From: Hymenobacter artigasi
GTDB lineage: Bacteria; Bacteroidota; Bacteroidia; Cytophagales; Hymenobacteraceae
Assembly (NCBI RefSeq): GCF_012275535.1
Contig: NZ_JAAVTK010000006.1
Coordinates: forward strand, 62,001 to 126,000
Direction of reading: 5' to 3'
Length of the DNA: 64,000 nt
Below are positions 1,881 through 48,972 of the stretch, piece by piece; positions within the stretch are counted from its first letter, which is position 1, and each line of letters opens with the position of its first letter. Made by a program: the position numbers and the translations under genes. The notes under the pieces were generated by a model, which did not search any database, was not told the origin of the DNA, and worked only from the letters and a program-made list of their open reading frames with translations.

Positions 1881-1995
1881 CTGTCATCCTGAGCTTGCGA
1901 AGGACCTTATCACGGCCGCCGCTGCTTTTCGGACGATTGATTTACTGCAAAATGGGCTACTATCCTTAGGTCCTTCGCTGGGCTCAGGATGACAG
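1881..1995. repeat. Inverted repeat, divergent family A
   Basis: The left arm starts CTGTCATCCTGAGCTTGCGA and continues AAGGACCT to 1907. The right arm, 1968-1995, is its near complement. The loop is about 60 nt. It fills the preT-preA spacer. The arm resembles the GTCATnCnGAGC core of family A but diverges in its inner half. Confidence 0.85.
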
Positions 1996-4355: not shown

Positions 4356-4467
4356 CCGTCATTCCGAGCGAAGCCGAGGAATCTTGCGTGCTTACACTAA
4401 TCCATGACGTTGCTACGATTTGATTACTACCACACGCGAGATTCCTCGGCTTCGCTCGGAATGACGG
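4356..4467. repeat. Family A inverted-repeat element
   Basis: The left arm starts CCGTCATTCCGAGCGAAGCC; the right arm reads GGCTTCGCTCGGAATGACGG at its end. The loop contains ACTAATCC and ACGATTTGATTACTA, which are shared with the copy at 22180. It fills the spacer between the ureidopropionase and dihydropyrimidinase genes. Confidence 0.95.
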
Positions 4468-7323: not shown

Positions 7324-7341
7324 TTTCGTTGGTTCTATTTG

Positions 7342-7380
7342 AACGTCATGCCGAGCGCAGCCGAGGCATCTCGCGTGCTG
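7342..7380. repeat. Solo family A arm
   Basis: A single left-type arm begins AACGTCATGCCGAGCGCAGC. Its complement is not adjacent; the matching right arm is at 7765-7797, beyond the GIY-YIG gene. The two together therefore form an outer inverted repeat around that gene. Confidence 0.9.
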
Positions 7381-7395
7381 TCGTTGTGGGCAATA

Positions 7396-7692
7396 TCAGC
7401 CGCTCCAGGTTTGTAAATCTATCGGTTCCCAATTGGGATTAAGCGTATTGATTAGAAATTCCTTTTTGGCGCGGTTCCAGTTTTTGATTTGCTTTTCACG
7501 CGCAATTGCTTGGGTTGCATCAGGACTTATTTCAAAATAGATGAGCAAGTTGCACTGGTAGCGTCCCGTGAATTTGCCCCACTCTCCTAAGCCCTCACCA
7601 TGCTCGTAAAGGCGGCGCTCCAGGTTGTTGGTAACGCCGGTATAGAGTACCGTTCGGGCTGGGTTGGTGAGGATGTAGATTAAGAAGCTCAT
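7396..7692 (-). CDS. Small GIY-YIG nuclease-domain protein
   Basis: The 98-residue protein is a stand-alone GIY-YIG domain (UvrC N-terminal/YhbQ-like superfamily). The first strand reads FLIYILTNPARTVLYTGVTN, where YIL and YTG correspond to GIY and YIG. A conserved Arg follows in NNLERRLYEHG, and the expected Glu lies in REKQIKNW. It probably acts as a metal-dependent DNA nuclease or is a domesticated relative. It has no role in pyrimidine breakdown and interrupts that cluster. A solo family A arm lies 15 nt beyond its stop and a complete family A element begins 5 nt upstream of its ATG. Its GC content is visibly lower than that of its neighbours. This arrangement suggests acquisition with, or mobilisation of, the repeat. 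Confidence 0.88.
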   Translation of the reverse strand: MSFLIYILTNPARTVLYTGVTNNLERRLYEHGEGLGEWGKFTGRYQCNLLIYFEISPDATQAIAREKQIKNWNRAKKEFLINTLNPNWEPIDLQTWSG

Positions 7693-7697
7693 CTTGA

Positions 7698-7797
7698 AAC
7701 GTCATGCCGAGCGCAGCCGAGGCATCTCGCTCGAAATCGTTGAACGATTGGTTTACTATTGCACGCGAGATGCCTCGGCTGCGCTCGGCATGACGTT
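7698..7797. repeat. Family A inverted-repeat element upstream of the GIY-YIG gene
   Basis: Two perfectly complementary 33-nt arms (7698-7730 and 7765-7797), beginning AACGTCATGCCGAGCGCAGC, enclose a 34-nt loop with GAACGATTGGTTTACTATT. The left arm duplicates the solo arm at 7342. Confidence 0.95.
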
Positions 7798-7814
7798 CTT
7801 TTTCTGACAACCTA

Positions 7815-12969: not shown

Positions 12970-13078
12970 ACGTCATGCAGAGCGCAGCGAAGCATCTTGC
13001 CCGCAGTCACTAACTCAATCGTTAAATAAAAGAATTAGTGGTGGCGGGCAAGATGCTTCGCTGCGCTCTGCATGACGT
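12970..13078. repeat. Family A inverted-repeat element (CAGAGCG variant)
   Basis: Perfect 35-nt arms beginning ACGTCATGCAGAGCGCAGCG. The loop has its own short complementarity (CACTAACTC with GAATTAGTG). It lies upstream of the cyclase gene and downstream of the glucosidase stop. Confidence 0.95.
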
Positions 13079-22179: not shown

Positions 22180-22288
22180 AACGTCATGCTGAGCGCAGCA
22201 AAGCATCTCGCGTGCCGCCACTAATCCTTTTTCAACGATTTGATTACTATCCCACGCGAGATGTCTCGGCTACGCTCGACATGACGTT
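22180..22288. repeat. Family A inverted-repeat element
   Basis: The left arm reads AACGTCATGCTGAGCGCAGC. The right arm diverges at a few bases. The loop shares CACTAATCC and ACGATTTGATTACTA with the copy at 4356. It lies between the adaptor and pump genes of efflux system 1. Confidence 0.93.
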
Positions 22289-35480: not shown

Positions 35481-35597
35481 AGACCGTCATGTCGAGCGCA
35501 GCCGAGGCATCTCGCGTGCAGCAGTATTCAATACCGTTTTCACGATTGAGTTACTAAGGCCCGCGAGATGCCTCGGCTGCGCTCGGCATGACGGTCT
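35481..35597. repeat. Family A inverted-repeat element upstream of the TldD/TldE array
   Basis: 36-nt arms with one mismatch begin AGACCGTCATGTCGAGCGCA. The loop has CACGATTGAGTTACTA. It lies in the divergent gap (296 bp) between the molybdoenzyme and the first tldD. The remaining 114 bp before tldD are AT-richer and presumably hold the promoter; no motif is convincing. Confidence 0.95.
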
Positions 35598-37379: not shown

Positions 37380-37503
37380 AACCGTCATGCCGAGCGCAGC
37401 CGAGGCATCTCGCTCGGAGTAGTAATCCAATCGTCAGCTCCGTTCGCCTGTGGTTGCAACGATGCGAGCGAGATGCCTCGGCTGCGCTCGGCATGACGGT
37501 CTG
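37380..37503. repeat. Family A inverted-repeat element between tldD1 and tldE1
   Basis: 37-nt arms begin AACCGTCATGCCGAGCGCAG and extend through CTCGCTCG; the loop is about 49 nt. It occupies most of the tldD-tldE spacer, as in pair 2. Confidence 0.95.
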
Positions 37504-40620: not shown

Positions 40621-40724
40621 ACCGTCATGCCGAGCGTAGCCGAGGCATCTCGCGTGCAATGGTAATTCAATCGATTAGATTACTACCCCACGCGAGATGC
40701 CTCGGCTACGCTCGGCATGACGTT
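40621..40724. repeat. Family A inverted-repeat element between tldD2 and tldE2
   Basis: Arms of about 36 nt begin ACCGTCATGCCGAGCGTAGC. The loop has GTAATTCAATCG, similar to GTAATCCAATCG in the pair 1 element, and GATTACTACCCCACGCGAG, as in the copy at 22180. Confidence 0.95.
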
Positions 40725-46757: not shown

Positions 46758-46850
46758 CTTTGTCATGCTGAGCGCAGCGAAGCATCCTATCAGCGCAGAA
46801 GGTGTCGTTGGCTTCTGATAAGATGCTTCGCTGCGCTCAGCATGACAAAG
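46758..46850. repeat. Family A inverted-repeat element upstream of the DUF4159 gene
   Basis: 36-nt arms with one mismatch begin CTTTGTCATGCTGAGCGCAG; the loop is only 21 nt and lacks the conserved loop sequence. Confidence 0.95.
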
Positions 46851-48880: not shown

Positions 48881-48972
48881 ACTGTCATGCAGCGCGTAGC
48901 GAAGCATCTTTACCGCTTAACGCAATCAGTTACCATCTCGGTAAAGATGCTTCGCTACGCGCTGCATGACGT
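48881..48972. repeat. Family A inverted-repeat element (CAGCGCG variant)
   Basis: Arms of about 34 nt begin ACTGTCATGCAGCGCGTAGC, with a 23-nt loop. It lies between the MoxR and DUF58 genes. Confidence 0.93.

Follow-up and report, generated by a model that had tools for sequence, protein, structure and literature searches.

A small GIY-YIG nuclease gene framed by CGTC-tagged hairpin repeats whose address triplet follows the nuclease clade

The GIY-YIG gene and its flanking arms

The window analysed here, a stretch of 64,000 nucleotides from Hymenobacter artigasi, contains a solo GIY-YIG gene encoding 98 amino acids, whose product matched PF01541 (E = 1.3e-17) and no other Pfam family. Judged by translation alone, the neighbouring genes presumably encode a dihydropyrimidinase, an aminotransferase, and a methylmalonate-semialdehyde dehydrogenase-like protein. 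A solo family A arm lies 3' of the gene and a complete two-arm element (7698–7797) lies 5' of it (Table 1), and both the coordinates and the Pfam match confirmed this arrangement as given in a preliminary description of the sequence. The outermost arms, described there as an exact inverted repeat of 33 nt, are indeed exact but extend over 38 nt (7341–7378 and 7761–7798), and the internal direct copy of the left arm was recovered in the arm beside the start codon (89% identity over 45 nt).

The window arms begin AACGTCAT, carrying the tag CGTC and the tail CTCGC, and the GTAG tag of RAYT-associated REPs is absent. The repeat had been estimated at about a dozen copies; this held for the wider family, which forms 10 two-arm elements in the window (+/−, head-to-head; one mismatch per arm), but not for strict family A, whose nine arms (one mismatch) make up four complete elements and the solo arm.

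Table 1. Nuclease gene, repeat arms, and two-arm elements in the window (positions in the 64,000-nucleotide stretch)
Feature	Position	Strand	Evidence
Solo family A arm, CGTC-tagged, 3' side of the nuclease gene	7342–7380	+	Exact 38-nt inverted repeat with 7761–7798
98-aa solo GIY-YIG nuclease gene	7396–7692	−	PF01541, conserved residues, AlphaFold2 model, PDB fold matches
Inner arm of complete element, adjoining the start codon and repeated directly at 7342–7380	7698–7740	+	
Outer arm of complete element	7755–7797	−	Hairpin with 7698–7740, −51.1 kcal/mol
Complete family A two-arm element	35486–35592	.	
Complete family A two-arm element	37384–37497	.	
Complete family A two-arm element	40624–40721	.	
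Two-arm element, address CCT	1883–1993	.	
Two-arm element, address TCC	4358–4465	.	
Two-arm element, address GCA	12972–13076	.	
Two-arm element, left arm GCT, right arm found with one mismatch	22183–22285	.	
Two-arm element, address GCT	46762–46846	.	
Degenerate two-arm element, detected only with a mismatch allowed	48884–48970	.	

Six residues of the protein (Y17, G19, R27, H31, E66, and N85) were invariant in an alignment of 16 homologues, and we take these to be catalytic-type residues. The AlphaFold2 model was confident (pLDDT 89.9), and its best PDB fold matches were GIY-YIG proteins. The UPF0213 protein 1zg2 was the sole match below E = 0.001 (E = 5.2e-5), followed by weaker matches to Slx1, UvrC, and I-TevI (E from 0.02 to 0.7); it was also the nearest solved structure by sequence (E = 9.5e-5), so that UPF0213-type small GIY-YIG proteins are the closest solved relatives of the window protein in both respects. 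Domain match, fold, and conserved residues thus place the protein in the GIY-YIG superfamily, whose members share the homing-endonuclease fold and cut DNA by hydrolysis. The Y1/HUH tyrosine transposase domain was absent from it in the Pfam search, and it shared 42% identity over 91 aa with a Neisseria gonorrhoeae homologue. When two proteins were scanned, PADLOC returned no match and PHROGs one weak match, to a family of unknown function (E = 8.7e-4); a defence-system reading is therefore unsupported here.

Arms frame the nuclease gene across phyla

Within 160 bp of the 61 nuclease genes in 60 Hymenobacter loci, a GTCATNCNGAGC arm was found beside 59 genes and on both sides of 48, versus 92 and 12, respectively, of 353 control genes in the same loci (odds ratio 105, p = 3e-39). 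Among short control ORFs, 14 of 107 had an arm and two had arms on both sides. The two nuclease genes with no such arm within 160 bp were those of L092 and L093. These loci are not independent, as 62 labelled genes represent 23 sites. The 60 regions were chosen from about 150 places listed, in order of E-value first, with some short contigs skipped, and weaker ones were then picked by hand; except for the loci of the window's own genome, the arms were unseen at the time of choice.

After the Hymenobacter analysis, the core motif was widened from GTCATNCNGAGC to GTCATNNNGAG. It was first used in this form on other Bacteroidota genera, where 26 of 27 loci contained at least one match under a lax rule (one mismatch, within 350 bp, no control), and was fixed before the cross-phylum set was examined. 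The latter comprised 80 loci picked by protein similarity alone, representing approximately 19 phyla or candidate phyla by record titles, with many metagenome bins; it includes five Hymenobacter loci, and L127 is the same locus as L095. Arms were present within 250 bp on both sides in 66 of the 80 loci, on one side in 11, and on neither side in three (L142, L168, and L194). Within 160 bp, with four loci near contig ends left out, 64 of 76 nuclease genes had arms on both sides, as did 6 of 237 controls (p = 8e-47); when the core had to match exactly, the corresponding numbers were 56 of 76 and 3 of 237. The result was similar when the five Hymenobacter loci were removed (60/71 vs 6/224 controls) and when all Bacteroidota were removed (56/64 vs 5/205 controls, p = 6e-43).

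From a plasmid collection, 14 of 41 matched records, some of them chromosome-sized, were examined for flanks and 11 further records for alleles, one of which (L307) carries the gene and was left out. GTCAT hairpins stood on both sides of the gene (350 bp, no control) in seven of the 14 records, namely those of N. gonorrhoeae (with dRS3-type repeats), Azospirillum lipoferum, Rhizobium, Shinella, Aeromonas, Planktothrix, and Spirosoma, and on one side in a Photobacterium record. When the tag was afterwards relaxed (CCTC or other CGTC forms), hairpins were also seen on both sides in Sinorhizobium meliloti, Novosphingobium, and Sphingobium, and on one side in Rhizobium tumorigenes. The Acidiphilium and Xanthomonas homologues (38–40% identical to the query) had no hairpins even with the relaxed tag. 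The proposed enrichment of such arms beside small GIY-YIG genes, relative to other genes, thus held very strongly, and far beyond Bacteroidota; the framing is not due to chance.

Two features of this collection may be recorded. In the Planktothrix agardhii plasmid (L268), the nuclease gene has an MmeI-type restriction gene on one side and the DISARM gene drmA on the other. NZ_CP119140.1, NZ_AP026896.1, and CP090106.1 are of chromosome size (2.2–4.9 Mb) yet labelled as plasmids.

The address triplet of the arms follows the nuclease clade

Each gene was labelled with the three nucleotides after GTCAT in its flanking arms, and label changes on the protein tree were counted and compared with shuffled labels. 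For all 162 genes, 40 changes were counted, versus a mean of 98 after shuffling (minimum 91 of 200). The counts were also below the shuffled values among the 62 Hymenobacter genes (13 vs 35), the 28 genes of other Bacteroidota (13 vs 18.4, minimum 15), and the 72 cross-phylum genes, 51 of which carry TGC (16 vs 20.5, minimum 18). When TGC was set against all other labels in the cross-phylum genes, five changes remained (mean 18.3, minimum 11 of 500).

Shuffling labels only among paralogues within a genome (11 genomes) gave a mean of 23 changes against the 13 observed, and none of 500 shuffles was as low. With one gene per genomic site (23 sites), the mean was 7.9 changes versus 13.7 shuffled, no shuffle being as low, and with one gene per site and label, nine changes were counted versus 16.0 (minimum 12 of 500). 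Mere shared descent of gene and flank was rejected as the source of the clustering, as the signal survives with one gene per site; from the within-genome and per-site tests together, the arm follows the enzyme rather than its genome or site. In one relative (G051), all three arms at the window site are of another subtype. Putative cognate recognition of the arm by the nuclease is well supported by these patterns, and the co-evolution of gene and REP that is a RAYT trait has its counterpart here in the arm triplet and the nuclease clade.

Hairpin structure of the arms

As single-stranded DNA, the complete element at the nuclease gene folded at −51.1 kcal/mol (z = −13.9), and none of 200 shuffles was as good. 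Single arms folded weakly, with z near 0 (+1.0 for the solo arm of the window). Among 857 arms, a set with some overlap between the window and L037, the exact complement N'N'N'AT occurred at 15–25 nt in 366, versus a mean of 64 (maximum 86) when the triplets were shuffled, and the base before GTC was C or T in 334 of these 366 paired arms. The inferred structure consists of a 5-bp outer stem, an internal loop, a 2-bp inner stem, and a 3-nt loop. A–T followed by T–A formed the first stem pairs in 42 of 42 arms, these having been pre-selected by 5' GTCAT and its exact complement. At the inner pair, which was unused in the selection, nine double changes were found in the 42 arms, and the next inner pair was unpaired in 18 of them. 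The Photobacterium arm, of the N. gonorrhoeae type, has a stem of 8 and a loop of 4.

The loop is GAA in 19 of the 67 arms that match GAGCNNNGC[GA]A; this gives GCGAAGC, which is described as a very stable DNA mini-hairpin with a Tm of 78 °C (PMC4686876). Such stability would fit recognition of the arm as single-stranded DNA.

Alleles with and without the gene

Across 173 genes, the nearest arms were ordered +gene− in 73, −gene+ in 31, −gene− in 30, and +gene+ in 11, while 24 genes had an arm on one side and four had none. The +gene− order is that of a two-arm element in which the gene replaces the spacer; at the window site the order is −gene−, with inverted outer arms.

At the window site, 30 orthologous spacers from 101 Hymenobacter genomes were examined, and the gene was present in six. 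The window-site gene is common to eight genomes in the same context, which suggests that it is mostly inherited there and not hopping now; likewise, the distribution of 62 Hymenobacter genes over 23 sites indicates that the gene is often inherited in place. In G089, which is 97% identical over the flanking 107 aa, a two-arm element alone occupies the site. The left flank of that element is similar to the sequence outside the window's element, and the right flank to the solo arm's flank; by eye, therefore, the gene and one arm are missing. G046 and G025 carry a family A element alone, and the remaining spacers contained elements of other addresses, unrelated palindromes, another ORF, or nothing.

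In the same spacer, between mmsA and the aminotransferase gene, a small open frame of another kind is found in two relatives (L211 and L212). Relatives whose spacer has no CGTC element often carry other long palindromes, of the CTAGCCCCCTCTCC type and others or of the GCTGTTAGCCTTTAGCTG type (L209, L226, L229, L231, L234, L235, and L216), as if the spacer tends to hold a hairpin.

Gene-free alleles were also found in other taxa. In A. lipoferum 4B, the cassette is located between sufB and sufC in the suf cluster, and 11 other Azospirillum records cover this locus at 81–82% without the cassette (five by sequence and six by coverage); neither the gene nor a CGTC hairpin was found in the five loci examined. 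The gene is present in seven Sphingobium records; coverage of the locus is less complete in four others, three of which were examined. In TomTYG64, a single collapsed palindrome occupies the place, and its outer tags join the flanking sequence at the same points as those of the cassette (by eye); TomTYG74 has a more degenerate form of this palindrome that fails the hairpin rule, and TomTYG72 an unrelated palindrome. The two Shinella relatives examined were without the gene and without CGTC hairpins. For Azospirillum, gain of the gene would be the simpler reading, whereas loss by recombination between the repeated arms would explain the gene-free alleles at the window site and in Sphingobium equally well.

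Neither a base-exact insertion nor a target-site duplication was found, either between the window and six relatives or for 163 elements in 79 loci, the spacers being too diverged. An element-free allele was seen in 2 of 568 flank pairs, both concerning one element (in two relatives), where 9 and 20 nt at the edges failed to align. The search for a clean empty site, suggested earlier, yielded gene-free alleles at orthologous sites but no base-exact insertion.

Comparison of the two-arm elements at 1883–1993 and 4358–4465 with G029, G019, G070, and G089 indicated that spacers often stay occupied while the address subtype changes. In G029, the element corresponding to 12972–13076 has collapsed to one palindrome of approximately 33 bp, like the gene-free Sphingobium allele.

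Repeat abundance in the genome and the genus

The genome containing the window has 319 sites of the family-wide pattern (≤2 mismatches), versus one for the reversed pattern, and 106 family A sites (≤1 mismatch). PF01541 matched in six places, corresponding to four small solo genes and two long frames (531 and 623 aa). All four small genes had nearby GTCATNCNGAGC arms, each of another subtype, and one contains an in-frame stop; no such arm was present in the 3.2-kb loci of the two long-frame genes.

The nuclease family was present in 86 of 101 Hymenobacter genomes, with one to six copies among the matches listed, several with in-frame stops, and in 182 of 296 Bacteroidota genomes, with up to 16 copies. 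Copies with an in-frame stop include those of L003, L008, L014, L023–L025, and others, which suggests steady gain and decay. The other 15 Hymenobacter genomes contained no family member even by profile search, a search with no positive control inside these genomes, although the same profile matched G000, G042, and G092. These 15 genomes nevertheless keep 12–528 arm sites.

Equal occurrence of family A in genomes lacking the nuclease had been named as a point against a mobilising role. This objection applied in part. The wide family was about equally abundant, with medians of 207 sites with the nuclease (65 of the 86 genomes) and 178 without it (15 genomes; p = 0.25), and a strict dependence of the repeats on the nuclease was accordingly not found. 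Family A itself followed the window-site nuclease, with a median of 60 sites (0 to 112) in the eight genomes with that gene versus 0 in the 72 without it (one-sided p = 0.002), a comparison confounded by kinship. G051 and G055 have the window-site nuclease with different arms and no family A sites; among the 72 genomes without it, 10 have at least 10 family A sites, and G049 has 164. For GCA-address sites, the difference was weak (median 32 with a GCA-framed nuclease, n = 9, vs 8 in those without or unclassified, n = 71; p = 0.09), and G087 contains 185 such sites and zero nuclease genes.

Relation to CGTC REPs, REPtrons, and Ssn

In a survey by Di Nocera et al. (2013, PMC3733652), CGTC REPs form one of the two large super-families of hairpin repeats in bacteria; they apparently lack a dedicated transposase, and no CGTC-flanked tyrosine transposase is reported there. 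The super-family includes dRS3 of Neisseria and RPE-4 and RPE-6 of Rickettsia conorii, and A. lipoferum appears in the species list. Its described traits are an unpaired CGTC (TGTC, CCTC) tag, AT as the first stem pairs, a stem of 8–9 bp, a loop of 4–5 nt, a CCA-type tail, and head-to-head dimers (PMC3733652). The arms reported here agree in the tag outside the stem, the first two pairs, and the head-to-head doublets, whereas the Hymenobacter arms differ in having an internal loop in the stem. A CCA tail is present in the A. lipoferum, Rhizobium, and Aeromonas arms but not in the window, where the tail is CTCGC. The homologues of N. gonorrhoeae and A. lipoferum sit between CGTC-tagged repeats, and the survey covers both Neisseria and A. 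lipoferum; where it records no dedicated enzyme, a linked nuclease is found here.

The RAYT/REPIN system of Proteobacteria (REPtron) comprises a small gene framed by inverted REPs together with dispersed extragenic palindromes, often doublets (PMC2817692, PMC3116915). The window system is similar in its small gene framed by inverted repeats, its dispersed hairpin doublets, and its clade-matched gene and repeat; that cognate repeats are commoner where the gene is present applies here to family A only. It differs in its enzyme, a GIY-YIG nuclease rather than an HUH tyrosine transposase, in its tag (CGTC, not GTAG), and in its hydrolytic chemistry, no transposition intermediate being seen here. 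The parallel to RAYTs drawn in the preliminary description is partly supported: the inverted flanking arms, the matched subtype, and the gene-free alleles fit it, and the wide repeat family is about as abundant without the nuclease.

A family of site-specific single-strand GIY-YIG nucleases, Ssn, was reportedly first described in Neisseria in a 2025 paper. Ssn is said to be a small solo GIY-YIG protein whose cognate repeat occurs in hundreds of Neisseria copies, with thousands of homologues having their own sequences, and the Neisseria enzyme reportedly cuts such a repeat as single-stranded DNA and modulates transformation. The N. gonorrhoeae gene between dRS3-type repeats is presumably Ssn, which the window protein would then resemble as a small solo GIY-YIG protein. 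That work probably covers part of the present findings. Among the titles and abstract openings of the literature matches listed, no paper joined GIY-YIG proteins to REPs; here, CGTC REPs gain a linked nuclease, from whose clade the repeat address can be predicted.

Proposed mechanism and alternatives

For one of the two large families of bacterial hairpin repeats, a recognising enzyme has long been missing; the nuclease probably fills this role, and it may also spread the repeats. Its target would be the hairpin of its own flanking repeat (GTC-AT-NNN-GA...-N'N'N'-AT-C), with the variable NNN serving as an address matched to the nuclease clade. We consider it reasonably probable that a small site-specific nuclease and its own flanking hairpin constitute a REPtron-like cassette, in which the gene is enclosed by inverted arms, and that the 100-bp two-arm elements are non-autonomous derivatives of this cassette, as REPINs are of RAYTs. 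The protein may bind and nick arm hairpins in single-stranded DNA, be it in replication, in repair, or in the course of DNA uptake; host enzymes might repair the cuts with another copy, whereby elements would spread, be replaced, or be removed. Since GIY-YIG enzymes cut by hydrolysis and would not rejoin strands as RAYTs can, spreading would depend on replication or repair by the host.

Four things were observed directly: the linkage of gene and arms across phyla, the agreement of address and clade, the covariation in the hairpin, and orthologous sites at which some alleles have the gene and others lack it. Mobilisation of the repeats by the nuclease is likely, given the architecture and the alleles, and is the reading most at risk. 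In its broadest form, which we put forward tentatively, the proposal is of a domain-wide kind of miniature mobile DNA whose hairpin REPs are propagated by a hydrolytic GIY-YIG nuclease in place of an HUH transposase, by addressed cutting of single-stranded hairpins and host repair, with a three-nucleotide address per clade.

The strongest alternative is a host function, in which the nuclease trims or restricts incoming single-stranded DNA in transformation or conjugation, or handles replication hairpins, the repeats being landmarks rather than cargo. It would accommodate the Neisseria homologue framed by dRS3-type repeats with the reported role of Ssn in transformation, the inheritance of the nuclease in place at shared sites, and the persistence of repeats in nuclease-free genomes. 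However, a trans-acting enzyme need not sit between its own repeats across species, as most do here, and the cassette in the A. lipoferum suf cluster is missing from the 11 other Azospirillum records; we regard this alternative as unlikely.

Selection of the repeats as terminators or mRNA-stability hairpins, with the gene tolerated in spacers and the linkage reflecting a common intergenic preference, is highly improbable. Several orthologous spacers do hold another hairpin type in relatives, as if a palindrome were kept, but control genes are rarely framed (2 of 107 short control ORFs on both sides), and address matching is left unexplained. As a full account, shared intergenic preference is largely refuted by the controls and the address matching, although it may hold for individual elements.

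We attach still less weight to the idea that a RAYT or other transposase moves the repeats, with the nuclease gene trapped between them as a passenger. Y1 transposase genes do occur in the genome containing the window (seven matches) and in 9 of 12 relatives searched; yet 0 of 27 Y1 loci were framed by these arms on both sides and five had an arm on one side, which disfavours a RAYT-driven model. These 27 loci (of 35 matches) comprise the seven of the same genome and 20 of 28 matches in the 12 relatives, and for each match the longest frame spanning its midpoint was used, a choice that in L280 may have picked a frame other than the transposase. Moreover, a passenger gene would not match the arm address across sites, and a CGTC-flanked tyrosine transposase is likewise unreported in the survey (PMC3733652).

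A homing-type process is very doubtful. In it, the nuclease would cut alleles that lack the element or carry one of another address, and gene conversion would copy the cassette or element into them, leaving the sites fixed while their occupants change. The homing-endonuclease fold, the weak I-TevI match, and the different-address elements held by the same spacers in relatives speak for it; against it, the address matches the enzyme's own arms, so that the target looks to be the resident elements and not empty sites.

The CGTC REPs comprise dRS3, the two Rickettsia elements, and, on the evidence given here, the GTCATnnnGAG repeats that abound in many phyla; the survey left open which enzyme serves them. 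With a tightly linked nuclease whose clade predicts the address, the question of the enzyme becomes directly testable using a 98-residue protein and short oligonucleotides. If the nuclease also spreads the repeats, it would represent a second, chemically different solution to the role of RAYTs, and a large natural set of addressed hairpin nucleases would be a useful toolbox.

Many of the Y1 genes, often of RAYT-like length, share other repeats across the gene (L271, L273–L275, L279, L281, L285, L287, L288, L290, L291, L295, and L296) and probably represent a second REP system in the same genomes. At G000:C4:313174-314530 (L004, L270), a long-frame GIY-YIG match adjoins a Y1 transposase match.
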